Of a DNA stretch of 36,515 nucleotides, positions 5,642 through 36,515 are shown piece by piece. The notes beneath the pieces were generated by a model. It saw only the letters and a list, made by a program, of their open reading frames with translations, made no database searches and had not been told where the DNA came from. Location of the stretch: the NCBI GenBank assembly GCA_030827475.1, contig JAUREJ010000019.1, positions 1 to 36,515 of the forward strand, read 5' to 3'. The position numbers and the translations under genes were made by a program. The DNA is from Candidatus Poseidonia sp. Its GTDB lineage: Archaea > Thermoplasmatota > Poseidoniia > Poseidoniales > Poseidoniaceae. Within the stretch, counting starts at the first letter, position 1. Each line of letters begins with the position of its first letter.

Positions 5642-5683
5642 GGCCGCAAGGCCTTCGGCTTCAGTTTGCAATTTTCTCTTCTT
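5641..5683 (+). terminator. Possible tbp terminator: GNRA hairpin plus T-rich tract
   Basis: AGGCC-GCAA-GGCCT (5641-5654) forms a short perfect stem with a GCAA tetraloop right at the tbp stop codon. A pyrimidine-rich tract with several T-runs (about 5665-5683) follows. Archaeal termination mainly needs T-runs, so the tract is the more relevant part. The same AT-rich stretch could also act as the promoter for the next gene. Confidence 0.4.
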
Positions 5684-5690
5684 AGAAGAG
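5676..5690. repeat. 15-base dyad CTCTTCT-T-AGAAGAG
   Basis: Seven-base perfect inverted arms around one central T, lying 8 bases before the ATG at 5699 of the first giant surface protein. Its length and position would suit an operator, but it could be chance in a pyrimidine-rich region. Confidence 0.35.
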
Positions 5691-5698
5691 AAGTCTTG

Positions 5699-8600
5699 AT
5701 GTCCTCTTTCAGACCTGCGCTCAACATGGGCGATAGGACGGTGTCGCTGCGACTTCCACTGGGGCTCGTGGCGTTGTTGCTGTTCTCGCTTGTACCAACA
5801 AGCCATCCGACGCTTGAAGAAAGCCAGCCCGTCCAACAAACACAAGGACAAGACCCCGGCGTCTCCGATGTCCCGACGTGGCGAATCGGCGACCGCTGGG
5901 TCTACGGCGGCACCTTTGACCCCACGATTTTGGTCACCGACACGGGCGTTGATGCCACCGTTGGTGAAATTCAAGGCGACACGACGACCGAGGTCATCGG
6001 CATCACAACGCAAAACGTGGACAATATGTCGGTGCTCGCCTACACCCTCCGTTCTTCAGCGAACTTCGACAAATCCGGTGTCTCCCTCGAAGGTTACACG
6101 GGCAACGTCTACATCCAGTACACCCAAACCGAATACCTGCGGGTCAGCGACCTCGCCGTCGTGCGCAATGAAATCGACATGTACATCCGCTTTGTTCCAA
6201 GCGGCATCTCGTTCCTCGAGCAGATCCTTGGCGACATCACCATCACGACCACCTATTCTCCGGTCAGTGAAAACTACGATTTCCCGCTCCGAGCCAACGA
6301 ACGATGGACGACGAACACCACCTCTTACGTCCAATGGTCGGGTCAGAGCGACTACATCACGCCTTTCCCGCCACCAAAGACCGACACCAACAGCACCACG
6401 TGGGTCGTGACGGATGTTGGCAAGCCGACGAATGCCATCGGCCAATCCATCGATTATGGAGGGTGCAACGCCTCCTACAAGATGATGTCCTACAACCGTG
6501 ATGGCGACTCGGACGGCTACCGCTGGTATTGCCCAGAAGTCGGGAATTTCGCTTGGCTTCATACGGAGGACGACATCGGCCTCACCATCGATTTCAGACT
6601 CAAGCGCTACGACCCAGTCGGCGCCACGGGGGTGGCCCCGTACACCAACCCGGGCACCCGAGCAACGTGTCTTGAAGTGACACCCGAGCGATCCATCACG
6701 GCCCTCAACACACCGATGGCCGTATGGGTGAACGCTTCATCCTCGTGCTTTTCCAACCCGGCAGGACTCTCTCTTGATCTGCACCACGAACACGAGGGCA
6801 TCGTGCAGAGCCTCACGACCGCAGCCAACGGAAGCGCATGGACGGTGTTCGACATTGGCGATGCCGTGGATTCATCGGCCACCCAGGTGGACTATGCGAG
6901 CCACGGATTGGTGGCAAAATCGGGGAACTATGTTGGAGCGACCACGGTCACGCTCGACGAGTACCTTGTCGGTCTCGATGTTTTTGCGGATGAAGGGGCG
7001 ACGGTGATTCTTCGAACGAGATGCGTGGAGGTGGTGTGCACAACGATCCAACTCAATGCCCTTTCGGGGTACAATGTTCTGCCAGGCGACGTTCTCGACA
7101 TTGAGGTGGCCTTCAAGAACCGGGGCATCACGACAACCCTCGAAACCGACGCTCGCCTCACCTTGCCCGACGGCAGCGCCAGCACGGTCCAGCTACCGTC
7201 GCTGGCCACCTATCAAACCCACAAGGTCCAGCAAAATTGGACCGTCCCGCTCACCGCATCCATCGGAAACCTGCAACTGCTGTGGGAGGCGGACATTTCT
7301 CGCCTCAACAGCGCTGACGCTGACGTTCAGAACAACTTAGGCAGCGTGGACCTTTTTGTCGGCAGCATGCCCACGGCCGTTGCGATGGAAGCCACCGGTT
7401 TGACCCGGGAAACCATCCTCATTAACGCAAGCAACAGCTTTGATGAAGACGGCGGAACCGTTTCTTGCACATTCAACGTCCCGTTTGACGACGGGACGAG
7501 AACCTGGGATGAGCAGCGCTTCGTATCGCCGTCTTGCATGCTCAACTACACGTGGACGGACGACGGCGTCTATCCGGTGGAGGTCACGGTCATTGACGAA
7601 GAACGCGATGAAACCATGCTGGTGCTCAACATCACCGTTGAAAACCGAGCTCCAAAGATCGAGGTGCGGAGCCAGCGAACCGAAGCCAAGGTTGAGCACC
7701 CCATCACGCTCTATGCGTATGCCAACGATTCGGATTCCGAAAAAGTCTGGCCGGGTGTGGTTGATATTCACTGGCCGGGGGCCAACTGCAAAGAGGGCTA
7801 TTACACCCGAATTTGCACCACCACCGCAACAACCGAAGGCTGGAAAACCTTCACTGCCGTTGGCACCGATGACGACAACAGCGTGACGACCGCCACGTTT
7901 GATGTGAGGTTCACGAACATCAAACCCCACAGCATCAACGTCCAGATGCTCGACCTGAACGGGCCCGTCCTGATGGACGCCCAGAACACCTGGCACGTGG
8001 ACGAAGACCAAGCCGTGACGGTACAGGGGCAAGCCCAAGATTCCGTGGACGACATCGAGGACCTCACTCATACCTGGTGGCCCGACGATGCAGAACCCTC
8101 GCTCATTCGTGTGTTTGACGGGCGAACGTCATCGTTTGACATGGTGTGGACCGAAGCGGGACTGCACAAGATGCGGCTTGAGGTGACCGACACGGAAGGT
8201 GCATCGAGTGGCGTGGAGGAACGGTGGGTGAGCGTCAACAACCTCCCGCCCACCATTCAGCCGCTCGACAGCGTTCTGCCCGTTGCTGAAGGGCAAAGCA
8301 TCAGCGTCAGCGGGTCGGCAACGGATACGCCGTCTGACCTCAGCACCTTGGTGAAGTGCTGGGACATTGATCCGAGCATGGACTCCGACGACGTGGGCAG
8401 TGCCGACGATGACTGCGATGTGCTGGGCGACAATTTGACCGTTTCATGGAACCGAAGCGGCACCCACAAACTGGTCTACCACGTCACCGATAATGACGGA
8501 GCCCACGCGAGTGAAGTCCTCGAAGTCACGGTGTTGAACACCCCGCCCTTGGTCCGGACGGCGTCCATCACCTGCACCGCACATCAAGTGTGCATCCTTG

Positions 8601-9220
8601 ATGCGAGTTCAACGTTCGACGCCCTCAACGACGTGAACGACCTCACGGTGGTCTGGGACCTTGACGTGCATCACGACAGCAACGAAGACGGCATTTTAGA
8701 CAACGACGCCGACCTGATTGGAAAAACGGTTGAGCACACCTTCCGGACCGACGGTCTTCACTCCGTGAAGGTCATCGCTTGGGACGAGGACCCCGAACGG
8801 CCCGGGACGAAGGTCGTCACCTTCACGGTCCTTCCCGCCGACCGCACGGCGCTCGAAAACCTCGGGGCTGCTCTCGTGGGCGAGGAGGCCAATCCCTTCG
8901 CACAACTCGGCTTGCTCGCAGGTGTTCTGTTCATCCTTCTGCTGCTCTCTCGGCGAAGGTCACGACCGGATGAAGACGCCGCTTGGAGTGAAGTGACCGG
9001 TGCCATGGCGGGTGGTGTCTTTGAGGACCGAGAAACCCACATCGCTCAACGACGGCCCGAAGGCCCGCCTCCGGATTACCTGTTCCATCAATCCCTCCAA
9101 GAAGCACCGTCTGCACCCGAACGGCCAGGTCCCCCGCTACCACCGTCCGGCCTTCCCGAAGGTTGGAGCATGGAACAATGGGAGCATTACGGTCAACAAT
9201 GGCTCGATGCTCGTGCTTGA
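5699..9220 (+). CDS. Giant surface protein with CARDB/PKD-like repeats, C-terminal anchor and W-rich cytoplasmic tail (paralog 1)
   Basis: A signal-peptide-like segment (RLPLGLVALLLFSLVP) is followed by a domain shared with the next gene (DVPTWRIGDRWVYGG near residue 55; GCNASYKMMSYN ... GYRWYCPEVGN in the middle). A CARDB-like domain follows (GYNVLPGDVLDIEVAFKNRG), then a series of PKD-like beta domains with AS.SFDEDGGT and TVENRAP or TVLNTPP strand ends. One membrane helix (FAQLGLLAGVLFILLLLS, about 1066-1087) is followed by a basic stop-transfer and a cytoplasmic tail ending in GLPEGWSMEQWEHYGQQWL. DxDxDG-like acidic loops suggest Ca2+ binding. The frame is open from a TTG at 5666; ATG 5699 is chosen because it gives a clean signal peptide, and ATG 5726 is possible. 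Likely role: cell-surface adhesion, matrix or substrate binding (inference). No enzymatic domain is visible. Confidence 0.85.
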   Translation: MSSFRPALNMGDRTVSLRLPLGLVALLLFSLVPTSHPTLEESQPVQQTQGQDPGVSDVPTWRIGDRWVYGGTFDPTILVTDTGVDATVGEIQGDTTTEVIGITTQNVDNMSVLAYTLRSSANFDKSGVSLEGYTGNVYIQYTQTEYLRVSDLAVVRNEIDMYIRFVPSGISFLEQILGDITITTTYSPVSENYDFPLRANERWTTNTTSYVQWSGQSDYITPFPPPKTDTNSTTWVVTDVGKPTNAIGQSIDYGGCNASYKMMSYNRDGDSDGYRWYCPEVGNFAWLHTEDDIGLTIDFRLKRYDPVGATGVAPYTNPGTRATCLEVTPERSITALNTPMAVWVNASSSCFSNPAGLSLDLHHEHEGIVQSLTTAANGSAWTVFDIGDAVDSSATQVDYASHGLVAKSGNYVGATTVTLDEYLVGLDVFADEGATVILRTRCVEVVCTTIQLNALSGYNVLPGDVLDIEVAFKNRGITTTLETDARLTLPDGSASTVQLPSLATYQTHKVQQNWTVPLTASIGNLQLLWEADISRLNSADADVQNNLGSVDLFVGSMPTAVAMEATGLTRETILINASNSFDEDGGTVSCTFNVPFDDGTRTWDEQRFVSPSCMLNYTWTDDGVYPVEVTVIDEERDETMLVLNITVENRAPKIEVRSQRTEAKVEHPITLYAYANDSDSEKVWPGVVDIHWPGANCKEGYYTRICTTTATTEGWKTFTAVGTDDDNSVTTATFDVRFTNIKPHSINVQMLDLNGPVLMDAQNTWHVDEDQAVTVQGQAQDSVDDIEDLTHTWWPDDAEPSLIRVFDGRTSSFDMVWTEAGLHKMRLEVTDTEGASSGVEERWVSVNNLPPTIQPLDSVLPVAEGQSISVSGSATDTPSDLSTLVKCWDIDPSMDSDDVGSADDDCDVLGDNLTVSWNRSGTHKLVYHVTDNDGAHASEVLEVTVLNTPPLVRTASITCTAHQVCILDASSTFDALNDVNDLTVVWDLDVHHDSNEDGILDNDADLIGKTVEHTFRTDGLHSVKVIAWDEDPERPGTKVVTFTVLPADRTALENLGAALVGEEANPFAQLGLLAGVLFILLLLSRRRSRPDEDAAWSEVTGAMAGGVFEDRETHIAQRRPEGPPPDYLFHQSLQEAPSAPERPGPPLPPSGLPEGWSMEQWEHYGQQWLDARA

Positions 9221-9268
9221 AGACGGTAAAGGACATTCACTTTTGTAGCAGGACGGTCAGCAGCATCC

Positions 9269-12200
9269 ATGAACCGAAGCGCTGCTCGTGCTCTTCTCCT
9301 CGGTCTTCTGTTTCTCATCGCACCCGGACTCCCGCTTCTCGAATCCTCCTTGCACCTCGAAGACAGCACGTCTGTCAACCGTACGCAACAAGGTTCCAAC
9401 ACGGTCGATGTCCCCACGTACCGCATCAACGATAAGTGGGTTTACGAAACCCAGTTCGATGTTGCCCAATTGCTGGCTCAAGCCAACGTTTCGGCTTCGC
9501 TTAACACCTTGACAGGGGACACCTCCAACACCGTGACGGACATCGTTTACGCTACCGATGAAAACGGTGGTACCGTTCTGGCGTACGAGATTGAGATCAG
9601 CGGGAGTTTCTCCTCAGGCAACAGCGGAGCGACCCTCGAAGGGGTGACAGGCCGCCTTGAGATCGACTACGAAGGTGTGGACCTGCTCAGAGCGCGAGAC
9701 TTGGCCATCATGAACAGCGAGTTCACCCTCGAAGTCGTCTTCGCTCCGTTCAATCTCGGATTCCTCTCACAAACGTTGGGTATCGTGACGTTTGACAACA
9801 CCTACACCCCCGCCAAGGAACGGCACGACTTCCCGCTTCGAAACGGCGACCAGTGGTACATGGAGTTCAACGCCTCGACCGAAGTGACCGGCACATCGGA
9901 TTACTTTGACCCCTCGGATTTTGACCAGGAGGTCGCCGAAAACAATTCTTGGCAGGTCATCAAAACCGGTGCGCCGCAAGAAGGTCAACAAACGCCCCAG
10001 TACACCGGCTGCTCCGATTCGTACAAAATTGCAGAGTGGAACGAGACCGGGGTGAACGCCGGCTTCAACTGGTACTGTCCGGCGGTGAGGGGCAGCGTAT
10101 GGAACCGCATCTCGAACCCTGCTGGTTTCACCATCGACTGGTTGCTCAAGACCTACAACCCTGCAGACTCTAACAACGTCGCGGCCGGCTCATCGCCCGG
10201 CGGACGAAACACCGTCTTGGAGGCCTACACCGCATATTCTGCCACGCTTCCAAATTCCATCGAGCAGATCAGCATCAGCTATTCGACGGTGGGTTCACCG
10301 TCCATTCCAATGAAAAACACCAACCTTCAATTGCGGTACGAAATTGGTGGAACCATTCTCAATCCGACGACCGACAACAACGGACAGGTCACGGTCTCCC
10401 TCAACGTGTCCGATGAGGTCGACGATACGCCCAGCAGCGATGACCACACCAGCAACGGGGTGGTCGTGTACGACCCGATCGGCAAAATCGTCGGTGCAAC
10501 CACCGTGGTGGAAGACCTCAATGTGGTGGGCGTTGACCTTGTGGCACAAGCCAGTTCCGTGATCGTTGAACGGACGCGGTCCGGCGTCACAAGTACGCTC
10601 AGTGCTTCGATTGGTTTCAATGCCTTGCCCGGTGATCTCCTCAGTTTCTCGCTGCCCGCTCAAAATCGCGGGGTGCTCTCTGCACCGGCGACGGTCATGG
10701 AAGTCGAGAATCCAGACGGAACGACAATTCGGGCGAACATGGAGGCCATCCAGCCCTATGCTGAAGAGCGGGTTCTGGTGAACTGGTCGGTCCCTGCAAA
10801 CATGACCATTGGCCTGGCTTCGCTCAATTTTACCGTTGACCCGGACCTGAACGTCACGGAGGATGCCAACCGAAGCAACAACCGGGCATCGCTTTCCGTG
10901 TTCATCGGCCGAGCACCGACCGCCTCCCTCGTCGTGGACGAAGGGAAGTACACCTTCGAGAACATCACGCTCAACGCCTCGGGAAGTTTTGACGAAGACG
11001 GTGGCGACGTGGACTGCCGTTTCGAAATCGAATCAAGAGCCGGTCTGATTGACGTCATCGAAGCTCCCGATTGCACCACCCACTGGAACTGGTCCAACAG
11101 CGGGTCGTGGGACGTCAAGGTCCTCGTTCTTGACGAAGAACTTGACACGGATGAAATTCTCATCGAGGTCGTTGTCCTCAACCGGGCACCAACCTTCCAA
11201 CTCAGTTTTGCCACGTCCGTGGATGTTGAACAGCCCATAACCGTTGAGGCCGTGAACGTCGTCGACATCGACACCTCCTCGCCCCCCGGGCAACAGGTCT
11301 CTATCTCGTGGCCGGGCCTCGATTGCGCCGAGGGGCTCACGCAACCCCGCTGCACCTTCACGCCGATGTTTGAGGGTCCGCTCAACATCACCGCCGTGGC
11401 GACCGACGATGACGGTGCAACCACCACCCTCTTCGGTGAAATTGACGTGCTCAACATCGCCCCGACCCTCTCGCCTCCCCAACTCTGGAAGGGCGGTCAA
11501 GAAGTGCTTCCAGATGAGAACGGGACCTGGCATGTGAACGAAGACGAAGTCGTCTTGCTGCGGGCAAACGCCCAAGACTCGGCAAACGACCAAGGTACCC
11601 TGCTGGTGGAATGGCATCCGTCGGTCGACGACCAAAATTGGACCGTCACCAGTATTGGCATCCTGTCCTCCGAGGCGGTTTCTTGGACCGATTCAGGCCT
11701 CCACACGGTGAACGTCCGAGCCATTGATGCTGACGGTGCTGCTTCATCGACACTCGAAGCCTTCGTCCGTGTCCACAACGTGGCCCCCACGATTGCATGG
11801 GAAGGCTCGCTGGTGAGCCAGTCCATCATCAGCGTCGCAGAAGACGATCAGCTTCTCAACCTCTCCGTCAGCGTGACCGATTCCGAGTCTGACCTCGCCG
11901 GGTTGGTCGTTTGTTGGGATTACGACGCTACCGTTGACCTCAACCGAGACGGCCAAGCCGACAACGATTGCGAGGCGACCGGACTGTGGGCAACGCCTAC
12001 ATGGTCCACGCAAGGACCCCGAACGGTCACGGTCACGGTCACCGATGACGATGGAGAAAGCGCTAAGGAAACGAAGAACATCTCCGTCAGGAACATGCCA
12101 CCGCTTGCGATCATTTCCGAACTGAGCGTTTTGGAAGGTTTGGTTGAAGGCGACAACCTGACCTTGAGCGGTTCGAATTCCATTGAAACCGAAGGAGACC

Positions 12201-12880
12201 GGACGAGCCTTGCTTTTGTCTGGGACAGCAGCCACCTTGACAGCGACCTCGACGGTGAAAAAACGGGTGATGTGGACTTTACAGGAGCCAACTGGACGGT
12301 TGAAAACCTCCCCGCTGGGACATGGACCATCACCCTCACCGTCACCGACGATAACGGGGAATTCCACCAATCCGAAATCACGGTGGTCGTTGCTCCCGCA
12401 CCCGTTGAGGGCATTGTTGAGAGCATCACGGAGGCCTTGGGAGGCACCATGACCGCCGTCATTGGCTTGCTCGGCATCGTCATCGTTGGGCTGGTCATCT
12501 TCCTGCTCTTCTCTCGTCAAGGCACGCCAGTAAAGGACGATGGCTTCGGTCTCTTCGACCAGTCTGCGTTCGCAGCACCACCTACCGTTGTCCCGCTTGT
12601 GACCACCGCTCCTGTCCAAACCGTGACAACGGCGCCAATCGACCCCACCCCCACCGTTTCCATGCCGCAAATGGACACCGCCCCGGTCGCTGCAGGACCT
12701 CCTCTTCCCTCGACGGGACTTCCCCAAGGATGGACGATGGAACAATGGGTTCACTATGGAGAACAGTGGCTTGCTGCAAATCAACCCGCTCCTGCACCTG
12801 TTCAGCCCATACTTTCACAAACTCCACCCACACCTGCCTCATCAGCGTTGCAATCGTTGCTTGACGATTTGGACTTTTGA
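9269..12880 (+). CDS. Giant surface protein with CARDB/PKD-like repeats, C-terminal anchor and W-rich cytoplasmic tail (paralog 2)
   Basis: This 1203-aa protein is a tandem paralog of the preceding gene, 48 bases away. It has a signal peptide (ARALLLGLLFLIAPGLPLL) and the shared N-terminal domain (NTVDVPTYRINDKWVYETQF; GCSDSYKIAEWN ... GFNWYCPAVRG). A CARDB-like domain (GFNALPGDLLSFSLPAQNRG) precedes PKD-like modules (NASGSFDEDGGDVDC, TVTDDDGESAKETK). A membrane helix (AVIGLLGIVIVGLVIFLLF, about 1060-1082) leads to a Pro/Thr-rich tail with GLPQGWTMEQWVHYGEQWL. Unlike paralog 1, it continues about 30 residues beyond that motif and ends in the acidic LLDDLDF. Weak similarity along the whole length fits an old gene duplication. 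Function is unknown beyond a probable surface role. The sepF-like gene starts 9 bases after the stop. Confidence 0.87.
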   Translation: MNRSAARALLLGLLFLIAPGLPLLESSLHLEDSTSVNRTQQGSNTVDVPTYRINDKWVYETQFDVAQLLAQANVSASLNTLTGDTSNTVTDIVYATDENGGTVLAYEIEISGSFSSGNSGATLEGVTGRLEIDYEGVDLLRARDLAIMNSEFTLEVVFAPFNLGFLSQTLGIVTFDNTYTPAKERHDFPLRNGDQWYMEFNASTEVTGTSDYFDPSDFDQEVAENNSWQVIKTGAPQEGQQTPQYTGCSDSYKIAEWNETGVNAGFNWYCPAVRGSVWNRISNPAGFTIDWLLKTYNPADSNNVAAGSSPGGRNTVLEAYTAYSATLPNSIEQISISYSTVGSPSIPMKNTNLQLRYEIGGTILNPTTDNNGQVTVSLNVSDEVDDTPSSDDHTSNGVVVYDPIGKIVGATTVVEDLNVVGVDLVAQASSVIVERTRSGVTSTLSASIGFNALPGDLLSFSLPAQNRGVLSAPATVMEVENPDGTTIRANMEAIQPYAEERVLVNWSVPANMTIGLASLNFTVDPDLNVTEDANRSNNRASLSVFIGRAPTASLVVDEGKYTFENITLNASGSFDEDGGDVDCRFEIESRAGLIDVIEAPDCTTHWNWSNSGSWDVKVLVLDEELDTDEILIEVVVLNRAPTFQLSFATSVDVEQPITVEAVNVVDIDTSSPPGQQVSISWPGLDCAEGLTQPRCTFTPMFEGPLNITAVATDDDGATTTLFGEIDVLNIAPTLSPPQLWKGGQEVLPDENGTWHVNEDEVVLLRANAQDSANDQGTLLVEWHPSVDDQNWTVTSIGILSSEAVSWTDSGLHTVNVRAIDADGAASSTLEAFVRVHNVAPTIAWEGSLVSQSIISVAEDDQLLNLSVSVTDSESDLAGLVVCWDYDATVDLNRDGQADNDCEATGLWATPTWSTQGPRTVTVTVTDDDGESAKETKNISVRNMPPLAIISELSVLEGLVEGDNLTLSGSNSIETEGDRTSLAFVWDSSHLDSDLDGEKTGDVDFTGANWTVENLPAGTWTITLTVTDDNGEFHQSEITVVVAPAPVEGIVESITEALGGTMTAVIGLLGIVIVGLVIFLLFSRQGTPVKDDGFGLFDQSAFAAPPTVVPLVTTAPVQTVTTAPIDPTPTVSMPQMDTAPVAAGPPLPSTGLPQGWTMEQWVHYGEQWLAANQPAPAPVQPILSQTPPTPASSALQSLLDDLDF

Positions 12881-16679: not shown

Positions 16680-19600
16680 TCAGAGGTTGAAGGAGGTGGA
16701 ACACACCGGGCAGGTCGTGCGCTTGAGCATCAAATCCTTCACGCCAAAGGCAGCGTTGCAAGACGGACATCTGACTTCACGCTTCAAATCGGGGAGAGGG
16801 AGTTGCGGCGGGGGCAAGGTGAGGTCAAGCGCAGGAAGCGGTTGTGGCATCGGCAGCGGAAGGGGCGGCAAAGCGCCTTGGAGGGCCGATGCCATTTCTT
16901 GCATTTCGCGCTGTTGCTTTCGCTTCATGCGTCGCTCCAGCCTTGCGTTGCCTTCACCTTCCTCAACTTTCTTTTCCAAACTGGAGGCGAGCGTGTGTTC
17001 TTCCTCCTCTTCCAACACGGCCACGGGGCCATGGTGAACGATCAAATCTTCATCGTCGACCGTGAGCAGGGGGCCGTGATCGTCTTCAGGGGTGATCATC
17101 AATTCCACGGCATCACTTTCCTCCGCCAGTTGTGCTTCGAGGTCCTCGAGGTCGGAATGTGAACGGCGAACCAACACCACCACGGCACCGAGGAAACCGA
17201 CCAAGAGCAAGAAAGAGAGTCCGAGAATGCGGAGTTTCATTTCGTTGGAACTTCCGGGAAGATATTCAAACAGGGTGTCAAGGTAGCCTGGGGCAGCCAC
17301 CCCGCTTGACGAACCGCTCAAGGAAACCACCTTGGTCAACCCGTAACTTCCTCCAGGCGTGACGGTGGCGACGAGGGTGTCGTCTTCCATCGAACCGATG
17401 CCGAAGATGTAGCCCTCGAACAACATGTTGGAGAGGCCTGAGAGCGGCTGGCCTTCTGCGTCGGCCACCAGACCCATACGTGTAACTGGGCCGTAAACGT
17501 TGATTTCGTCGTGGAAGAGGTACACGCCTTCATCGCGAAGTGCGAGATTGATGGCGGTCACGCCGGGGGCGTTGGAACGGTGGATGACATCGTTGGACCA
17601 GACCGAATTCGAGGTGGTCGTCACGACGTTTGCCGTTCGGCCTTGTCCCTCAATCCATGCAGCGACCAGTCGGTCTTCTTCATCTTCCACCAGCACTTCA
17701 AGTTGGGGGAATTTCGCCTCGTCACCGATGGAATACTGGAAACTCCAAGCGGCGGATGTGAGCGGCCCATGCGTGTACATCAAACCCGCTCGTTCGATAC
17801 CCGTCACGTCGTCTCGGTATTCCTGATAGATGATGTGAAGGTGTTCTTCGCCCAGCCCAACGCCGAGGGGTTGAGCATCTGCTGGTCGGATATCAATGTC
17901 GGACAGGACGTTAACTGGGTTGCTCCACGAGTTTCCCTTATCGGGCGTCGCTGAGGAAATCACAAACAGGGAGGTGATGTCCTGCCACGAACCGCTTGTT
18001 GAGAGGTCACGATGATAGCCTGCGAGCACCATCGTCCCATCGTATTGGTCAAACGTGAACCCGTAATAAGCGCCCTCGGAGAGTTTGATCGGCGGCATAT
18101 GGTAGTGCTTGGGCGTGGTTTTTCCACCCGCAGATACCGAGGTCATTGCGATGTCCGTGAGAATGTAACCCTCTGCACTCAGGGAGCGTCGCGTCCACGC
18201 AACCTGGACAAGCCCGTCGTCGCGCTGATAGGTTGCCAAATCGCCGCCCCAAGCTTCGTCAAGCAACACACTGCCGGGCATGGAAAGCGTGGAGGTTACG
18301 GTGCGAACATGAAGTTCGCCGTCCACCGTGGTGAAGAGCAGCGCGCCGTTTTCAAGCCCGACGAAATCCACCGGCACCTCGCCTGTGGCCAAGGATACGC
18401 TGACCTTCGAACCGATGTAGAGATCGCCAACGGTGACGTTGAAGCGCATCTCACTGTGAGCCAATTCAACACCCGAACCACTCAGAATCGCTCGGTACGA
18501 CATGGTACCGACCTCGTTGGAAACATGAGCGAAACGAGCAAAGGAATAGCCTGAGGTGGTCGACGAACCGGGCACCAACATCACGCTCTGGTCCTCAAGA
18601 CGGTCCCAACCGATGCCTTCAGCCCAGACCTCGAGACCGACGTTGAGGTTGGTGGCATCGCCTTGGCCGAGGTTGTCCACCCGCACGGTGATGTCGTACG
18701 GTGTCCCTGGAGACGGAATCACGGGTTCGGTCCGAGCTGAGCCCGGCATGAACCGAAGCATCGGTTGAAGCGGGCGTTCTTCGATGGTGAAGGAGAAGGT
18801 GTAGATGTTGTCGCTGCGGTCCGGGTCCTCGTATTGCTGGGTGGGGTCGAGGGCGAGGGTAACGTCGTGGGTTCCGGCTTCGGTGGCCCACCAATAGAGC
18901 GTGACCTGCACGCTTTCACCTTGGTCCAGCGATGTGACCTTACCCTCCGAGGGGTACGTCGAGGAAGTGCTGCCTTCCCCTTCGAGCGTCAGATAGACCT
19001 CGTTGGCGTCAAGGTCACCGATGTTGCGCAAGCCGAACCGAACTTCAAGCACCGTACCAGCGACGGCTGAATTGACGGAAATCCCCCCATCGTAGACGCC
19101 AACGGAGCCCGCAAAGGCAAAATTGGGTGCAGCAGGAAGGTTGTCGACTTCGTAGGTTCGCTTGAGCACCTCGCTCTTCACATCGGTCGCATTCACCATC
19201 CGAATGCTGATTCGATGGGAGCCGTCCCCGACTTGGGTTGAATCCCATCGGAAGGACCAGTCTTGTGAACCCTCTTTTTGGTACGTGAGGGTGTCGCCAA
19301 CTTCCCAGTCACCGTTGTCGATTTTGTATTCAATGCGGTCGTGTTCAGTCCCTTCGGCAGTGCCTTCAAAGTCCACAAACCCGACCAACGGGGTGCCCAG
19401 GGCCGGTTCGGAAATGGAGACGCTCATCCTCGCGAAGCGAACCACCCGGAAATCAATGGCAGAAGCCTCACCGCTTTCGGTCAGGGCTCGAGCGTAAACC
19501 AGCGTGTAGGTTTCATCCGGATCAACCCAATCATCGTCGATCGTGATGTCGAAGTACCAATCTTCAACGGTTCCGTCAGCACCCAGCCAGTTGGTCAATT

Positions 19601-21536
19601 CGGTGCTCTCGCCGTCGTCGTAAAATTGCTCAAACTTGACCTGAACCTCGACGTAGTTTTCCTCACCGGTATCGGTTGAACCTTCCACGGAAAGCGTGTT
19701 GCCTGCAAGGTGGAGGGTTTGATTGACGGGCGCGGACATGGAGACATCGTTTCCGAGGCCGTCACCGCCGGGTGGCGGGTCCACGACCACATCGCCGTTG
19801 TCTTCAAGAGGCGTGCATGAGCGACCAAGAACCCGATCCACGGCGCAGGAAGCATCGACAAGACCGAAGCCCCATTTGTCGTTCCACCGGTCCGAGACGC
19901 CAGGTTCGCTGGGCGTGCCTCGTGCTTCGGAAGAATTGCGAAGGATGTTCCTGATGGCCTCAGGGTCGAGCGTGTCGTCGGCCTGCAGCATCAAAGCCAC
20001 CACGCCGGAAACCACCGGTGTGGCCATGCTCGTCCCGTCCTTTGAATCGTATTCGTTGTCGGCAAGGGGTCGCTCGGGTTGACCGGGGAACGACGGTCCT
20101 GTGGCTGCCGTTGCGGAGATGATGGCGGTCCCGAATCCAGTCAAATCCGGCTTTAGTTCATCCCATTCATCATCGTCGCCGTCGTCAAGACGCGGTCCAA
20201 AGTTGGAGTATGATGCGATGACGTCGTTGGTTCGATTGACCGTGTTGCGGTCGTTGGCCGATGCGATGGAGATGGCGCCGTCTGCACTGGCGGGAGAAGG
20301 CACTCGCTTGCTCCCGTCGTTGCCCATGGCGACCACGCAGACGATGCCGGCATCCCGTGCATCGTTGACGAGGCGGGCCTCGGCTCCCGACCCGTTGTCC
20401 CCTTCGTCGTTGGGGTTCAGGGGCGAACTGACGGAACCGAAGGACATGGAGGCCACGTCAATGCCTCGGCTGGATTCGTTGTTGCCCCAATCGGTGTTTC
20501 GGTTGTTGATCATCCACTGAATGCCGTTCAGCGAGGCTTGCGAATTTGTGCCTCCCGAATCGGTGAGGACCTTGATGTCGACCAAATAGGCGCCCATGCC
20601 GGTTCCGGTGTGGATACGTTGGGAGCCCCCGGTCCCGAGAGCCGTGGCGGCGACGTGGGTCCCGTGCCCTTGTCCGTCGTCGGGGTCCACCGTCCCGTCG
20701 GGATTTGATGCTGTGGAGGTTGCGTCAAAACCAGCCACCCACTTTTGGTCGGTATAACTTGTCGGATCGCTGTCCGGCTCGTCGTCGATGTCGTCAAAGT
20801 CGTTGAGCGCTCGATGCTCGTTGTCCACGCCGGTGTCAAGAACCGCTATGACCACGCCTTCGCCGGTGTAACCGCGCTCGTAGGCGCTGGCTGAATAGAC
20901 ATCTGAGGGCATGGCTCTCGCAGCTTCAGACGCCACGCCGTTAAACGGCACCATGACGTTCTGCATTTCGACCACCACCACGCCGGGAAGGTGGTACACA
21001 TCCAAAAGAGCGCTCACGGGCACCTTGTCGAGCACGACCGAGTCAATGGAATCCATGACTTGGAACCAGGCCCCGCCGGCTTCCCCCACCCATCCGTGCG
21101 CGTCGAGCGTGGCGACCAAGCTGTTGACTTCGTCATCGTTGGGCGCCCAAGCATAATCCACCACGATGGCGACGGTTTTACGACCGTCAGGCCCGATGAT
21201 GGCGGTCGGCGAGATGGATTCCTGGCCGTCGAGCACCCGCTGAAGTCGGTCATCCATGCCGTTCCAGTCCAAATCAGGGCCGTAGGAAAGCCACCACATG
21301 TCGGGTTCAGCGGAAACCCGGTCGCCTCGGTCAAGGAGGCGGAACGGTCGTTCACACAGGTTTTCACCGCACATCAACGGCGGCAGGCCGTCCACAAGAA
21401 GAGGCGCTCCGTGCGTGGGGGCTTCCTCGGCGGGGGGGGTGTTGGAGAGGCCGGCGGCACTGACATCGGCAACCAGCAACAACAACGAGAACAGAACAGC
21501 AGCGAGGGTGAAGGATGGAGTGGCTTCGCTGCGCAT
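16680..21536 (-). CDS. Giant subtilisin-like (S8) surface protease with CARDB domains, membrane helix and cytoplasmic zinc ribbon
   Basis: The protein is about 1618 aa from ATG 21536, which opens a clear signal peptide (MRSEATPSFTLAAVLFSLLL). The peptidase S8 domain follows an N-terminal pro-region: catalytic Asp in VIAVLDTGVD (residue 234), His in GQGHGTHVAA (291), oxyanion-hole Asn in VAMGND (406), Ser in DGTSMATPVVSG (503). Downstream are Ig/Fn3-like and two CARDB-like domains (GLRNIGDLDANEV; RVDNLGQGDATNLNV), then a beta-rich propeller-like region. A helix (LGLSFLLLVGFLGAVVVLV) near 1440 precedes a tail of about 158 residues that is acidic, then basic/coiled, then Pro-rich, ending in a zinc ribbon CPSC...CPVC. 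The frame runs 73 codons further upstream, but that part overlaps the rhomboid 3' end and lacks a signal. Likely role: extracellular protein degradation while anchored to the cell. Confidence 0.92.
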   Translation of the reverse strand: MRSEATPSFTLAAVLFSLLLLVADVSAAGLSNTPPAEEAPTHGAPLLVDGLPPLMCGENLCERPFRLLDRGDRVSAEPDMWWLSYGPDLDWNGMDDRLQRVLDGQESISPTAIIGPDGRKTVAIVVDYAWAPNDDEVNSLVATLDAHGWVGEAGGAWFQVMDSIDSVVLDKVPVSALLDVYHLPGVVVVEMQNVMVPFNGVASEAARAMPSDVYSASAYERGYTGEGVVIAVLDTGVDNEHRALNDFDDIDDEPDSDPTSYTDQKWVAGFDATSTASNPDGTVDPDDGQGHGTHVAATALGTGGSQRIHTGTGMGAYLVDIKVLTDSGGTNSQASLNGIQWMINNRNTDWGNNESSRGIDVASMSFGSVSSPLNPNDEGDNGSGAEARLVNDARDAGIVCVVAMGNDGSKRVPSPASADGAISIASANDRNTVNRTNDVIASYSNFGPRLDDGDDDEWDELKPDLTGFGTAIISATAATGPSFPGQPERPLADNEYDSKDGTSMATPVVSGVVALMLQADDTLDPEAIRNILRNSSEARGTPSEPGVSDRWNDKWGFGLVDASCAVDRVLGRSCTPLEDNGDVVVDPPPGGDGLGNDVSMSAPVNQTLHLAGNTLSVEGSTDTGEENYVEVQVKFEQFYDDGESTELTNWLGADGTVEDWYFDITIDDDWVDPDETYTLVYARALTESGEASAIDFRVVRFARMSVSISEPALGTPLVGFVDFEGTAEGTEHDRIEYKIDNGDWEVGDTLTYQKEGSQDWSFRWDSTQVGDGSHRISIRMVNATDVKSEVLKRTYEVDNLPAAPNFAFAGSVGVYDGGISVNSAVAGTVLEVRFGLRNIGDLDANEVYLTLEGEGSTSSTYPSEGKVTSLDQGESVQVTLYWWATEAGTHDVTLALDPTQQYEDPDRSDNIYTFSFTIEERPLQPMLRFMPGSARTEPVIPSPGTPYDITVRVDNLGQGDATNLNVGLEVWAEGIGWDRLEDQSVMLVPGSSTTSGYSFARFAHVSNEVGTMSYRAILSGSGVELAHSEMRFNVTVGDLYIGSKVSVSLATGEVPVDFVGLENGALLFTTVDGELHVRTVTSTLSMPGSVLLDEAWGGDLATYQRDDGLVQVAWTRRSLSAEGYILTDIAMTSVSAGGKTTPKHYHMPPIKLSEGAYYGFTFDQYDGTMVLAGYHRDLSTSGSWQDITSLFVISSATPDKGNSWSNPVNVLSDIDIRPADAQPLGVGLGEEHLHIIYQEYRDDVTGIERAGLMYTHGPLTSAAWSFQYSIGDEAKFPQLEVLVEDEEDRLVAAWIEGQGRTANVVTTTSNSVWSNDVIHRSNAPGVTAINLALRDEGVYLFHDEINVYGPVTRMGLVADAEGQPLSGLSNMLFEGYIFGIGSMEDDTLVATVTPGGSYGLTKVVSLSGSSSGVAAPGYLDTLFEYLPGSSNEMKLRILGLSFLLLVGFLGAVVVLVRRSHSDLEDLEAQLAEESDAVELMITPEDDHGPLLTVDDEDLIVHHGPVAVLEEEEEHTLASSLEKKVEEGEGNARLERRMKRKQQREMQEMASALQGALPPLPLPMPQPLPALDLTLPPPQLPLPDLKREVRCPSCNAAFGVKDLMLKRTTCPVCSTSFNL

Positions 21537-21619
21537 GGGCTCACCTCGCAAAATAATGGAAAGCCTGCCCACCTTTGAGTCTATCCACCGATGTATCACG
21601 CCGTGCCTTGGTTTCAACC

Positions 21620-22669
21620 TCAGGAACGGCTCGGCCATTCGAGGTGTGACGGGTCGTTGGAACACTGAAGGTGAGGCCCGCTTGAGCGCTCGACCAAACC
21701 CAACGACGCCGTGCAGGTCGGGCAGGTGCCGGCATTCGCCAAGTGCTCCATCCACGCTGCTCGGGTTTCGGGCTCGTCGCTGGCCTGCAAGAGATTTTTC
21801 AACGGCTCACGCAGATGCTTGGGGACCTCAAGTCCTCGAGCGGTCCACGGGTCTTCGATGGTCTCCATGTTGATCATGCTCGCTTTGAGGCGCCGACGCT
21901 GTGCGGCATGCGCATCACCTTGGCTGGGTCCACCGTCGACCACACCGAGTTCGACCGGGCCGCCTTTTGCAACCCAAGGCAAACAAGCATAGGCCGCGAT
22001 GAAGCCACCGATATGGGCCATGTGAGCGATCCCGCTGGAAACACCCGATTCCATGGTGGCCAGTGCCCGAACGAGTTCCAAACCGAAATAGAGCAAGGCG
22101 ATGAGGACGACGGGCCACGGGCGAATGAGCAAAAGGGGAAACGGGATTTCATCCCTCGGCCAGCCGGCGAGGTAGGCTCCCAGCAACCCAAAGGCGGCTC
22201 CTGAAGCGCCCAAGGCCGGTCGCCACGAGTCGGCGTTGAACGCCACCCAGCCCAAAGAACCGCCTGCCAAACCCACGACGTAAACCACGGCAAAACGGCG
22301 GCTACCGAGCCGCTGTTCGAGGGGGACGCCAACGAGCGCAAGGATGACGACGTTGCCCAAGACGTGCATCAAGTCGCCTTGGCTGTGCAGGAATCCGGCC
22401 GAGAACAAGGTGTGCCAGAACAACGGGTCGCCCGCTCGTGCGGGAACGAGAACGAAGTCGCTCCAGACCCAAAGCGTGACCACCTCCCAAGAATAGAGCA
22501 CCGACCAAAGCACCTGCACGACCGAACCGAGAAGCACGCTGACCGTGACCCCCATGGCGATGGAGGTGCCGGTCCGAACTGCATACGCAAGCGGGCCAAG
22601 GACCGCCACGACCCAAAGAACGAGCACCCCCCATTCCGCCGTCCCAAACAGTGACATGGCGAAGCCCAT
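21620..22669 (-). CDS. Rhomboid-family intramembrane serine protease with C-terminal zinc-ribbon-like tail
   Basis: A multi-pass membrane protein with the rhomboid catalytic dyad: Ser156 in GASGAAFGLLG and His219 in HMAHIGGF. The HxxxN oxyanion pair is H102 and N106 in HVLGNVVIL, and an ExRxGS-like loop (LEQRLGSRRF) is present. After the last helix (about 232) a soluble cytoplasmic extension of about 115 residues ends in CPTC...C, which looks like a zinc ribbon with only three obvious Cys (the fourth ligand may be His). Rhomboids cleave membrane-spanning substrates. The start may be ATG 22669 or 22657 (MSLFGTAEW). The subtilase gene begins 83 bases downstream on the same strand, suggesting related expression, though a functional link is inference. 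Confidence 0.9.
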   Translation of the reverse strand: MGFAMSLFGTAEWGVLVLWVVAVLGPLAYAVRTGTSIAMGVTVSVLLGSVVQVLWSVLYSWEVVTLWVWSDFVLVPARAGDPLFWHTLFSAGFLHSQGDLMHVLGNVVILALVGVPLEQRLGSRRFAVVYVVGLAGGSLGWVAFNADSWRPALGASGAAFGLLGAYLAGWPRDEIPFPLLLIRPWPVVLIALLYFGLELVRALATMESGVSSGIAHMAHIGGFIAAYACLPWVAKGGPVELGVVDGGPSQGDAHAAQRRRLKASMINMETIEDPWTARGLEVPKHLREPLKNLLQASDEPETRAAWMEHLANAGTCPTCTASLGLVERSSGPHLQCSNDPSHLEWPSRS

Positions 22670-33347: not shown

Positions 33348-33998
33348 ATGCGACCCAAGCACCTGGCGATGGCACTGTCCAAACTCGAACCCCATCCCAG
33401 CACGGATGTGGCATTGGAACAATACGCCACCGAGGGCGACCTCGCTGCGTATTGGATGCTTGCCGTGGACGAACTTGACGGCTTGGAGAACGCCGTCGTG
33501 GCCGACCTCGGAGCGGGCAACGGCATCTTGGGCATAGCATGCCTGATGCTTGGTGCGAAGCACGTGCATTTTTACGAATGCGATGGTTCAGTTCTCGAGG
33601 TCCTTCGTTCAAACCTTGAACATCTTCCAGAGGGTTTGCAAGGGCGCAGCACCGTTTACGCCCAACCCGTCGATGGCGAGTCGCTGGAGATACCCGAACT
33701 CGATGCGGTTGTGATGAACCCGCCGTGGGGAGTGCAACGCCCCAAGGCGGACCGCCCGTTCTTGCGCACGGGTTTTTCGAGCGGTGCAAAAGCCGTCCAT
33801 CTTCTTCACAGCGACAAAGCCGCTCATGTCGAGAGGGTTGCAGCAGAACACGGTTGGGAGGCTGAAAGCGTCCTTCGAACGGACTTTCGATTGCCGCCCA
33901 CGTATCACCACCACGCCCAACGAACCGCCAACACGGAGGTGCGCTGTTGGCGATTCCACCGACCCGGCGATGCTCGTTTGCCGACGGACGAAGGATGA
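33348..33998 (+). CDS. METTL5-like SAM-dependent RNA methyltransferase
   Basis: The 216-aa Rossmann methyltransferase opens with MRPKHLAMALSKLEPHPSTD and VALEQYATEGDLAAYWM, a typical METTL5 N-terminus. SAM motif I is VADLGAGNGILGIA (51-64), and the catalytic NPPW motif is at 124-127 in VVMNPPWGVQ, followed by ADRPFLRTGF. Human METTL5 makes the 18S rRNA m6A1832 mark, and archaeal relatives are thought to be rRNA or tRNA N6-adenine methyltransferases, so an RNA m6A role is likely but not proven here. Start ATG 33348 follows the zinc-ribbon stop by 4 bases. Confidence 0.88.
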   Translation: MRPKHLAMALSKLEPHPSTDVALEQYATEGDLAAYWMLAVDELDGLENAVVADLGAGNGILGIACLMLGAKHVHFYECDGSVLEVLRSNLEHLPEGLQGRSTVYAQPVDGESLEIPELDAVVMNPPWGVQRPKADRPFLRTGFSSGAKAVHLLHSDKAAHVERVAAEHGWEAESVLRTDFRLPPTYHHHAQRTANTEVRCWRFHRPGDARLPTDEG

Positions 33999-34039: not shown

Positions 34040-34097
34040 TGACTAGCGAACGGTGTGCGACCCATCTCGGGCCATACCTGCACATGGAAGGAAGAAC

Positions 34098-35528
34098 ATG
34101 ACGGCGAGCCTCGTCACCCCAGGAAGCATCATCGCCACCGAAGGCGAACATGAGAACGGCGAAGGAACGGTCCTTGATTCGGGAAACATCGTTTCAACCG
34201 TGGTCGGCTTCGTCCACGTGGACAACGGCGTCATCAGCGTCGCTGCGGCGAAAGCCATCGTTGAGCCCGAGGTGGGCGACACCGTCCTGTGCGAGGTCGT
34301 GAAACTCAACGAAAAAAACGGCGAGGCCATGATCACCTGCGTTGAAGGCAAACCGGGTTCGCTTCAACCTCAACACCTCTACGGTCAATTCTTCGTGACC
34401 GGTCTCGTTGACCGGTTCATGCACCAAACTTCTGACGCCCTTCGGCGAAGGGACGTGTGCCGTGCCTTGGTCAAGGAAGTCCACCCCGTGGTTCGCCTTG
34501 ACTTCAGAGAGCGCAACGACTGTGGCGTCCTTCACGCCATCTGCCCTCCATGTGGCGATACCCTTCAACCTGAACTCGACGGCGACTGGAACGTGAAATG
34601 CCCAACCTGCGGCTACCAAGCGTACCGGGCGCTTGCTGACAACTACGGCGCCGGTTGGGCTGAACTCGACCAAGGTGCCAGCGCACTCAACAACGCCGGA
34701 AAGCGTTGGGGCGCTGCTGCTGAAGCCATGTTTGCGAAAGGTCCTGCAGGCCGAGCCACCTTCATCGCCGCCGATGTTCGTGAAGACGGACGAGAACGCT
34801 CCTACTTCCGCTTTGAAGGAGAAAGCGGCGGTCATGGCGGAGGACGTCAACGACCGGCCCCCGGCACCCGCCTCTTTGTCGGCGGCCTGCCACGAGAGGT
34901 CGGCACCGAAGAACTTCGAGACCTTTTCAAGAGCCACGGCGACATGACCGACTGCATCGTTTTGACCGACGATGCCGGCGTGAATCGGGGCTTTGGCTTC
35001 GTCACCTACGCCGAGAAAACCATGGCCGATGCGGCCATCAAAGCGCTCGACGGCCACCGAGTCAACGGCCGTCGAATCGGTGTCCGAGACGCTGACGACG
35101 ACAAGAAGAACGAGGGCAAGAAGGAAAGAAAAGAGCCCGAAGGCCTCAAACTCTACATCGGCAACCTGCCGTTTTCCGCTACCGCAGAACACTTGCAGAC
35201 CTTGGTGGCGGCGCATGCCACCGTCACCGAAGTCGTGCTGGCCACCGGACCTGGAGGAAAGGCCAAGGGCTTCGGCTTCGTGTTCATCGCTGAGAAGGAC
35301 AAGGGCGAAGCCGTGGTTGCTGCGCTGAACCAGAGTGAAATTGACGGTCGAAAGATCAAGGTCGACATCGCCAATGCCAAGGGCAACAAAGACGGGGGTC
35401 GCAAGGGTCGCAGCGGTCAAGATGACGGCGATGGCAGTGGGAAATCCTCTCGAGAATTGCAAGCTCTCCGAGAAGAAGGCGAAGGCGGGAAGAAGCGGCG
35501 CCGACGGCCTCGAAACAAGAAGGATTGA
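34098..35528 (+). CDS. csl4: Exosome-cap Csl4 protein fused to two RNA recognition motifs (RRM)
   Basis: From ATG 34098 (GGAAGGAAGA just upstream) the protein is 476 aa. Residues 1-185 are archaeal Csl4: an N-terminal beta domain (VTPGSIIATEGE, then GTVLDSGNIVSTVVGFV), an S1-type segment (VGDTVLCEVVKLNEKNGEAM) and a zinc ribbon (CPPC at 149/152, CPTCG at 168/171). Known archaeal Csl4 normally stops about there. A linker with a Gly-rich end (HGGGRQRPAPG) leads to RRM1 (about 257-332; RNP2 LFVGGL, RNP1 RGFGFVTY) and RRM2 (about 350-426; RNP2 LYIGNL, RNP1 KGFGFVFI), then a charged tail ending KKRRRRPRNKKD. Csl4 caps the 3'-5' RNA-degrading exosome; the RRMs would add sequence-binding capacity. 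The frame is continuous with no sign of frameshift. The ORF extends to 34053, but that adds no family residues. Confidence 0.93.
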   Translation: MTASLVTPGSIIATEGEHENGEGTVLDSGNIVSTVVGFVHVDNGVISVAAAKAIVEPEVGDTVLCEVVKLNEKNGEAMITCVEGKPGSLQPQHLYGQFFVTGLVDRFMHQTSDALRRRDVCRALVKEVHPVVRLDFRERNDCGVLHAICPPCGDTLQPELDGDWNVKCPTCGYQAYRALADNYGAGWAELDQGASALNNAGKRWGAAAEAMFAKGPAGRATFIAADVREDGRERSYFRFEGESGGHGGGRQRPAPGTRLFVGGLPREVGTEELRDLFKSHGDMTDCIVLTDDAGVNRGFGFVTYAEKTMADAAIKALDGHRVNGRRIGVRDADDDKKNEGKKERKEPEGLKLYIGNLPFSATAEHLQTLVAAHATVTEVVLATGPGGKAKGFGFVFIAEKDKGEAVVAALNQSEIDGRKIKVDIANAKGNKDGGRKGRSGQDDGDGSGKSSRELQALREEGEGGKKRRRRPRNKKD

Positions 35529-35553: not shown

Positions 35554-36515
35554 ATGGTTGAGTCCAGCGACCCTGTTTGGTTGGTGCTGGACGGTTACGA
35601 AGACGAGCCGGCCGCATTCGGTGTCCCTCCATACGTCGGTTTTCATGTGCGATACGTCTGCGGCGTGCTCGAGCAAGCCTCTGTGCCCTACGTTTACATG
35701 ACCGTTGACCAGTGGCGTCGATGGCAGCGCAACGAGACCGAACGCCTTGAGCGTCTCCTCGCCAATCTGCTCGGCGTGGTCTGCGTGGCTGGCGCTGTCG
35801 TCCCCGGCAAATACTTGCGCGGAACACCCATTTCGCTCAAGGAGACACAAAACCTCATCCGAAGCCTACCGAAAGGCACTGCAACGTTGCTCGGCGGCTG
35901 GGCCATCCGAGGATGGAAGCAACAAGGCTGGACACCGCTCCAACCAAACTTGTTTTTGGCCGTTCAGGACACCGACGCCACCCTCCATCACTATTTGGCG
36001 CAAGGGGAATGGAAACACCAACGACGAAACGCTGAGCAGTGGACACAATGGGCACAGGCCGGTGCGAGCAGCAAGGCGGTAAGGCACCATCCGGACCTCG
36101 GTACGGCACAAAAACCGGGGCCCTTAACCTACGAAGTTGAGGTGTACCAAGGATGCGTTCGATACAAACGAGGCTGCAAGTTTTGCATTGAACCCAAGAA
36201 GGGGGTTCCGATTTGGCGGACGCCAGAAGACATCATCAAAGAGGTCCGATTGGCCCATGAGGCTGGAGTTCACCACGTTCGCCTCGGTGGCATGACCGAC
36301 ACCTACACCTACATGGCTGAAGGCGTCCGTGAATTGGAGTACCCCGTTCCCAATCCCGAACCCATTGCTCAACTGCTTCACGGGCTCCGTGAGGACGAGC
36401 GACTCGACATCCTTCACACCGATAACGGCAACCCGTCGATCATCGCCGAGAACCTTGAGCCGGCCGAAGCGATCACGAAAACGCTCGTGGAGACCCTCTC
36501 CGACGGAGCGGTGCT
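35554..36515 (+). CDS. Radical SAM protein with CX6CX2C motif, C-terminus cut by window edge
   Basis: The frame starts at ATG 35554 (MVESSDPVWLVLDGYEDEPA) and stays open to the right edge, 320 codons visible. The N-terminal part (about 1-185) resembles a binding domain before the catalytic core: VPPYVGFHVRYVCGV, then a helix and a strand (VAGAVVPGKYL; TATLLGGWAIRG). The radical SAM cluster motif is in YQGCVRYKRGCKFCIEPKKG, near residues 206-216, with spacing C-x6-C-x2-C instead of CX3CX2C. The following HHVRLGGMTDTYTY and RLDILHTDNGNPSII fit the strands of the barrel. Archaeal families of this kind are largely uncharacterised; the substrate is unknown. It follows csl4 by 25 bases. Confidence 0.85.
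   Translation, partial: MVESSDPVWLVLDGYEDEPAAFGVPPYVGFHVRYVCGVLEQASVPYVYMTVDQWRRWQRNETERLERLLANLLGVVCVAGAVVPGKYLRGTPISLKETQNLIRSLPKGTATLLGGWAIRGWKQQGWTPLQPNLFLAVQDTDATLHHYLAQGEWKHQRRNAEQWTQWAQAGASSKAVRHHPDLGTAQKPGPLTYEVEVYQGCVRYKRGCKFCIEPKKGVPIWRTPEDIIKEVRLAHEAGVHHVRLGGMTDTYTYMAEGVRELEYPVPNPEPIAQLLHGLREDERLDILHTDNGNPSIIAENLEPAEAITKTLVETLSDGAV

Follow-up and report, generated by a model that had tools for sequence, protein, structure and literature searches.

How an exosome chooses its RNAs is still an open question. The archaeal complex is the simpler relative of the eukaryotic exosome. In the accessible parts of the papers that describe it, the archaeal cap comprises Rrp4, Csl4 and DnaG (PMC4227792; PMC7667871), and in Sulfolobus poly(A) is preferred by Rrp4 and DnaG, with Csl4 having no such preference (PMC4227792). 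The window analysed here, the whole stretch of 36,515 nucleotides, comes from a Candidatus Poseidonia-like draft genome (1.82 Mb, 100 contigs, estimated 87% complete) and holds one gene that appears to join Csl4 to two RRM domains, RNA-binding modules of a type widespread in eukaryotes. The locus raises the question of whether such a fusion is real and, if so, what two RRMs would do on the exosome cap. No description of a Csl4–RRM fusion was found among the literature matches listed, which were titles and abstracts from a search with most subscription journals outside its coverage.

Domain architecture of the fusion protein

Open-frame analysis of the window gave an unbroken frame of 476 codons from the ATG at 34098 to the stop codon at 35526-35528. 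A longer alternative frame starts from a GTG at 34053; an ATG stands at the position aligned with 34098 in all 80 named relatives. The 476-residue protein consists, in order, of a complete archaeal Csl4, a conserved 72-residue linker, RRM1, RRM2 and a basic tail. The features of the locus are as follows.

33348..33998, + strand: upstream neighbour, a small methyltransferase (Pfam MTS, 32.5 bits; cut-off 23)
34098..35528, + strand: Csl4–RRM fusion gene, 476 codons plus stop
34098..34649, + strand: Csl4 half, residues 1-184 (NCBIfam NF034126; PDB 2ba1)
34110..34223, + strand: ECR1_N N-terminal domain, residues 5-42 (Pfam PF14382, 33.5 bits; cut-off 27)
34542..34610, + strand: zinc-ribbon cysteines C149, C152, C168 and C171, two CxxC pairs read from the sequence
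34650..34865, + strand: conserved linker, residues 185-256
34872..35078, + strand: RRM1 (RRM_1, 70.9 bits; cut-off 20.7)
35151..35360, + strand: RRM2 (RRM_1, 43.6 bits; cut-off 20.7)
35373..35525, + strand: basic tail (residues 426-476) that includes a conserved stretch resembling KSSRELQALREE
35554..36513, + strand: downstream neighbour, a radical SAM protein that runs off the contig (Pfam Radical_SAM, 33.2 bits; cut-off 29.5)

The Csl4 half matched the NCBIfam Csl4 equivalog NF034126 with 102 bits (cut-off 90) over residues 5-184 and model positions 2-179 of 180, and a PDB sequence search aligned residues 5-186 with the Archaeoglobus Csl4 structure 2ba1 (E 9.5e-13). The four zinc-ribbon cysteines are invariant across all 46 sequences of the alignment. 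The sequence-only reading had assigned an N-terminal domain, an S1 region and a zinc ribbon to this half; the first and the last were borne out, and the S1 domain, which had no Pfam match of its own in the fusion protein (E up to 0.1), is suggested by the match to the Csl4 model over its full length, the alignment with 2ba1 and the predicted strands. The fusion is the sole Csl4 above the cut-off in the draft genome, the second match, at 29.5 bits, lying at the rrp4 gene.

The RRM_1 model (PF00076) matched the protein twice (E 5e-31 and 106.7 bits for the whole protein, cut-off 20.7), and the best tandem-RRM protein in the PDB sequence search had an E-value of 7.7e-33. The RNP2/RNP1 motifs read LFVGGL/RGFGFVTY in RRM1 and LYIGNL/KGFGFVFI in RRM2; the final RNP1 residue of RRM2 is I, and RNP1 usually ends in F or Y. 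Both RRMs have the RNP motifs that had been read from the sequence, and residues 260, 299, 301, 353, 392 and 394 are aromatic and invariant in 76 of 76 sequences. Within this draft genome, the pair constitutes the only RRM matches. Against the model of the bacterial Rbp regulator, NF058537, the RRM scored 99.6 bits (cut-off 100). Taken together, the Pfam, NCBIfam and PDB searches confirmed that a complete Csl4, two RRMs and a basic tail lie in one uninterrupted frame, and at the level of sequence comparison a chance match is excluded because of these E-values and the conservation in relatives.

Conservation of the fusion in related genomes

A scan of the genomes of named species with a query derived from the family gave 118 matches, of which the top 80 were analysed. 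Among these 80 Poseidoniaceae loci, 76 have one frame running from the ATG through both RRMs to the stop; in the other four (L123, L137, L138 and L151), the contig ends before the frame completes. The closest named relative among the 80 (L099, Poseidonia sp.) is 97% identical over 250 residues, and the Poseidonia sp. lineage of the closest named loci belongs to the class Candidatus Poseidoniia, phylum Thermoplasmatota. The named set includes a single-contig chromosome of 2.06 Mb (CM001443.1), labelled as a MAG, and two records, AG-333-I22 and AH-273-O19, that look like single-cell genomes, judging from their isolate names. In L115, one of the 76 intact loci, an RRM1 stretch occurs on both sides of a run of N. 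We do not regard it as a triple-RRM relative, as two of its three RRM-like stretches flank that run and probably represent a scaffolding duplicate. Among viral contigs, there were no confirmed relatives of the fusion.

An assembly join or a frameshift linking separate Csl4 and RRM genes, which a source genome in 100 contigs at 87% completeness might suggest, is so improbable that we reject it: the relatives share the frame (76 of the 80 named loci, one of them across a run of N), codon-level constraint spans the junction of the Csl4 and RRM parts, and the five odd short frames inspected are accounted for by contig ends (G183, G174 and G005) or by Ns at the break (G090 and G186). The fusion proposed from the sequence thus withstood both a search for a break between its halves and the comparison with close relatives, being intact in 76 of these 80 named loci and present order-wide.

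Across the order, RRM matches were found in 184 of 193 genomes and matches to the Csl4 model in 190 of 193, each in 21 of 21 genera, although such tallies by themselves do not show that a given genome has the fusion. Other S1-type proteins match the Csl4 model too; the model was over its cut-off in 125 of the 193 genomes, and it gave a match in 11 of 14 control genomes, including E. coli. The 62 loci taken from these searches encode 56 distinct proteins, of which 27 have at least two RNP1 patterns, 28 have a zinc finger ahead of a single RRM, and one (L051) is cut short. The named-species loci and those of the order survey may overlap.

Two designs in the order and an unfused sister family

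These archaea, for which we take Marine Group II to be the common name, carry the fusion in two designs. In Poseidoniaceae, Csl4 is followed by the linker, RRM1, RRM2 and the tail. In the second family of the order, presumably Thalassarchaeaceae, Csl4 and the same linker are followed by a CxxC zinc finger, which matches Pfam zf_Tbcl_2 and NCBIfam cxxc_cxxc_Mbark, and by one RRM; both RNP patterns are kept in 30 of 30 single-RRM frames longer than 400 aa (28 distinct). The fusion is thus order-wide, as RRM-RRM or as zinc finger-RRM, and not the oddity of a single genome.

A tree of 49 RRMs, weak in that it rests on 80 columns, placed 14 RRM1s in one group (92/84) and 12 of 14 RRM2s with the second-family RRMs (87/82). 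In the same tree, seven standalone RRMs of the phylum grouped together (100/96), and the remaining two fused RRM2s (L033 and L034) joined them (99/96); descent of the fused RRMs from such standalone domains is one candidate origin.

The sister family of the class, which we assume to be Marine Group III, has an unfused Csl4. A Csl4 over the cut-off was found in 10 of the 12 genomes searched, with frames 185-235 aa long. Each of the ten loci read has a methylase gene ahead of Csl4, and the Csl4 stops at the position of the zinc ribbon. One of these proteins is 26% identical to the Csl4 half of the window. Several of the unfused proteins (among L072-L079) appear to have lost part of the zinc-ribbon cysteines. 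The RRMs of this family, present in 18 of 21 genomes, are encoded by small genes of their own (85-105 aa in the 17 frames among the matches listed), which in the two loci read sit among unrelated genes. In the phylum outside the class, an RRM was found in 21 of at most 255 genomes, so that the scarcity of archaeal RRMs asserted in the sequence-only reading holds in this part of Thermoplasmatota; these frames, at 81-158 aa, are too short to hold a Csl4. Within the sampled genomes of this phylum, the fusion occurs in one order only.

Among the matches listed, at least 12 Csl4 frames of 300 aa or more lie outside the class, and 11 of the 12 were inspected (all but G417). In eight of the 11, the surplus codons are stop-free sequence that precedes the Csl4 match. 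Two others, G225 (L193) and G276 (L194), have Arg/Gly-rich Csl4 tails of 118 and 131 codons, and G229 (L191) combines an upstream run with an Arg/Gly-rich tail of 54 codons. We had considered these frames as candidates for further RRM fusions, and no RRM was seen in the 11 tails. The earlier statement that archaeal Csl4 ends after the zinc ribbon accordingly has exceptions, in three of the 11 long frames elsewhere in the phylum. Arg/Gly-rich tails are possibly a further means of giving the cap RNA binding, and judging from sequence, Csl4 of this phylum may repeatedly carry RNA-binding tails, in Arg/Gly-rich, zinc finger-RRM and RRM-RRM form.

Selective constraint on the linker, RRMs and tail

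Constraint was estimated from a codon alignment of the window gene and 75 relatives, from which L115 and the four cut loci were dropped. We used 306 pairs of 85-97% protein identity, with 161-304 pairs per region giving a usable dS. The median dN/dS was 0.066 for Csl4, 0.037 for the linker, 0.031 for RRM1, 0.050 for RRM2 and 0.139 for the tail, values that are rough as synonymous differences are high (median pS 0.53-0.70). The mean frequency of the top residue per column was 0.763, 0.865, 0.829, 0.732 and 0.635 for the same regions. Both measures put the linker and RRM1 clearly ahead of Csl4 in conservation, with RRM2 about level with Csl4. These data point to a constrained RNA-binding surface, not to a specificity.

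In the linker, 33 of 72 columns are invariant among 76 sequences, and R203, W204, D226 and R228 are invariant across both families (23 sequences). Among the proteins compared, the linker was seen only behind fused Csl4 proteins. The Pfam search of the fusion protein gave no match for it, and the search against solved structures gave two weak matches (E 0.049 and 0.73) on which we do not rely. The tail as a whole is the least constrained region, and K449, R452, E453, A456, E459 and E460 in it are invariant in 46 sequences. The KSSRELQALREE-like stretch is nearly invariant in Poseidoniaceae and the remaining tail drifts; this stretch is perhaps a binding peptide.

Predicted structure

A full-length AlphaFold2 model built from 46 sequences had a mean pLDDT of 63.3 and a pTM of 0.31, the latter ruling out any placement of the RRMs on the exosome from this model. 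The RRMs and most Csl4 strands were better modelled than the linker and the tail. Predicted strands and helices of both RRMs follow the beta-alpha-beta-beta-alpha-beta order, with block pLDDT mostly 74-86 for RRM1 and 68-82 for RRM2. The best PDB matches in Foldseek were the tandem RRMs of Sxl, HuD and HuR, with RNA-bound tandem RRMs among them. Foldseek and AlphaFold2 support an RRM fold, and neither a specificity nor a placement. Residues 178-254, the linker region, have pLDDT below 50, yet the linker is conserved like a domain; it is probably flexible and may fold only with a partner.

Genomic neighbourhood and other exosome genes

In every eligible named locus, the fusion has the methyltransferase gene (74 of 74) and the radical SAM gene (75 of 75) as adjacent same-strand neighbours. 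The fusion-side methylase is 28-29% identical to the methylases upstream of unfused Csl4 in two sister-family loci (L071 and L078). Elsewhere in the same window, the regions 5666-12880 and 16680-21755 encode three proteins that are probably secreted or displayed on the cell surface: a subtilase of 1691 aa that has a CARDB domain, and two large PKD-domain proteins, of 1184 and 1203 aa.

In the genome of the fusion, psmA, SBDS, rrp4, rrp41, rrp42 and L37ae are contiguous in this order, and the fusion gene lies apart from that operon. Rrp41, SBDS, PsmA and L37ae scored above the curated NCBIfam cut-offs; Rrp4 (149, cut-off 200) and Rrp42 (234, cut-off 280) were best matches that fell below theirs. 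Besides Rrp41 and Rrp42, the genome has a separate bacterial-type RNase PH (L069, contig C90, positions 1540-2364; 241 bits, cut-off 141.5). DnaG is also present, at 360 bits (cut-off 300) with model positions 1-282 of 419 covered, and we reject at the gene level the notion that the RRMs replace it.

Possible roles of the RRM arm

We lean towards the reading, the most economical one, that the fused region gives the exosome cap an RNA-capture arm. By orthology, the Csl4 half would belong to the cap, on an archaeal exosome that is otherwise ordinary, and the conserved, probably flexible linker would leave the zinc ribbon and carry the two RRMs. The RRMs could bind single-stranded RNA through their intact RNP surfaces, as the conserved aromatics suggest, and, near the pore entrance, they would recruit substrate RNA or keep hold of it, increasing its concentration locally. 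Threading of the captured RNA into the Rrp41/42 ring would then lead to 3'-5' decay or to the reverse tailing reaction. For this reading we count the equivalog score of a Csl4 that is the only one over the cut-off, the frames shared by 76 of 80 loci, the low dN/dS, the invariant RNP aromatics, the row of Rrp4, Rrp41 and Rrp42, the presence of DnaG, the fold matches to tandem RRMs, and the unfused Csl4 that stands beside a homologous methylase. Against it we count the scores of Rrp4 and Rrp42 below their cut-offs, the low pTM, the RNP1 of RRM2 that ends in I, the columns of RRM2 slightly below those of Csl4, and the distance of the gene from the exosome operon. A capture arm could have a sequence preference, which the data allow and do not require.

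A stronger form of the capture-arm reading, which we put forward only tentatively, is a sequence-selective exosome, in which the RRMs would recognize short motifs in RNA, on which decay or tailing would then depend, as a covalent counterpart of RBM7 (NEXT complex) or Nab3. The six aromatics invariant in all 76 sequences and the motif-binding Sxl, HuD and HuR among the top fold matches speak for it, but conserved RNP aromatics are common to specific and unspecific RRMs, and fold matches do not give a specificity. What is accessible of the literature describes RBM7 as a U-rich RNA binder (PMC7603334) and the Sulfolobus Csl4 as lacking a poly(A) preference (PMC4227792), so that Csl4 would be free to gain one. 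If this tentative form holds, the Marine Group II exosome would read sequence through an adaptor built covalently into its cap; this adaptor, a cofactor of its own in eukaryotes, would have diverged between the two families into RRM-RRM and zinc finger-RRM readers, which may select different RNAs.

We regard it as equally tentative that the RRMs, zinc finger and basic tail form a general RNA clamp or chaperone, raising the affinity for any single-stranded RNA without a choice of target, for example by opening or holding structured RNA in cool sea water. The difference in design between the families, as if any RNA-binding add-on sufficed, the unrelated Arg/Gly-rich Csl4 tails elsewhere in the phylum and the near-threshold match to the bacterial Rbp model are all consistent with a clamp. 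However, the conservation of the linker and RRM1 within Poseidoniaceae surpasses that of the Csl4 half, which exceeds what a generic clamp would need.

It is improbable that the protein works away from the exosome, in ribosome or mRNA binding, or that its RRMs tether the exosome to another complex and not to substrate. The conserved linker of no known family could bind a partner, and neither of the constant neighbours, the methyltransferase gene and the radical SAM gene, is an exosome gene. Nevertheless, the genome keeps Rrp4, Rrp41 and Rrp42 with no second Csl4 over the cut-off, and a homologous methylase precedes unfused Csl4 as well, so the methylase neighbour is not special to the fusion.

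The order-wide, strongly constrained fusion offers a one-gene test system for whether RNA-binding domains on the cap can by themselves redirect 3'-5' decay, with natural controls in the sister family, where Csl4 is unfused, and in the two designs of the arm.

Comparison with known systems

The fusion shares with archaeal Csl4 (NF034126; 2ba1) the N-terminal domain, the full-length match, the zinc-ribbon cysteines and a methylase neighbour like that of the unfused sister family, and differs by about 290 extra residues past the zinc ribbon, namely the linker, the two RRMs and the basic tail. Archaeal DnaG, like the proposed RRM arm, adds RNA binding to the cap; it reportedly needs Csl4 for its own binding. 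Unlike the fused RRMs, DnaG is a separate protein, and this genome has both. The bacterial-type Rbp (NF058537) and the standalone archaeal RRM proteins are small single RRMs of the same domain family that are unfused, the standalone ones forming, in the weak tree, the group of their own that holds two of the 14 fused RRM2s. In eukaryotes, the parts of the literature accessible to us link the RRM proteins RBM7 (NEXT complex) and Nab3 to exosome targeting (PMC5146272, PMC7603334, PMC4361618). They share the domain type with the fusion. RBM7 and Nab3 are separate cofactors, whereas here the RRMs are fused to the cap protein itself.
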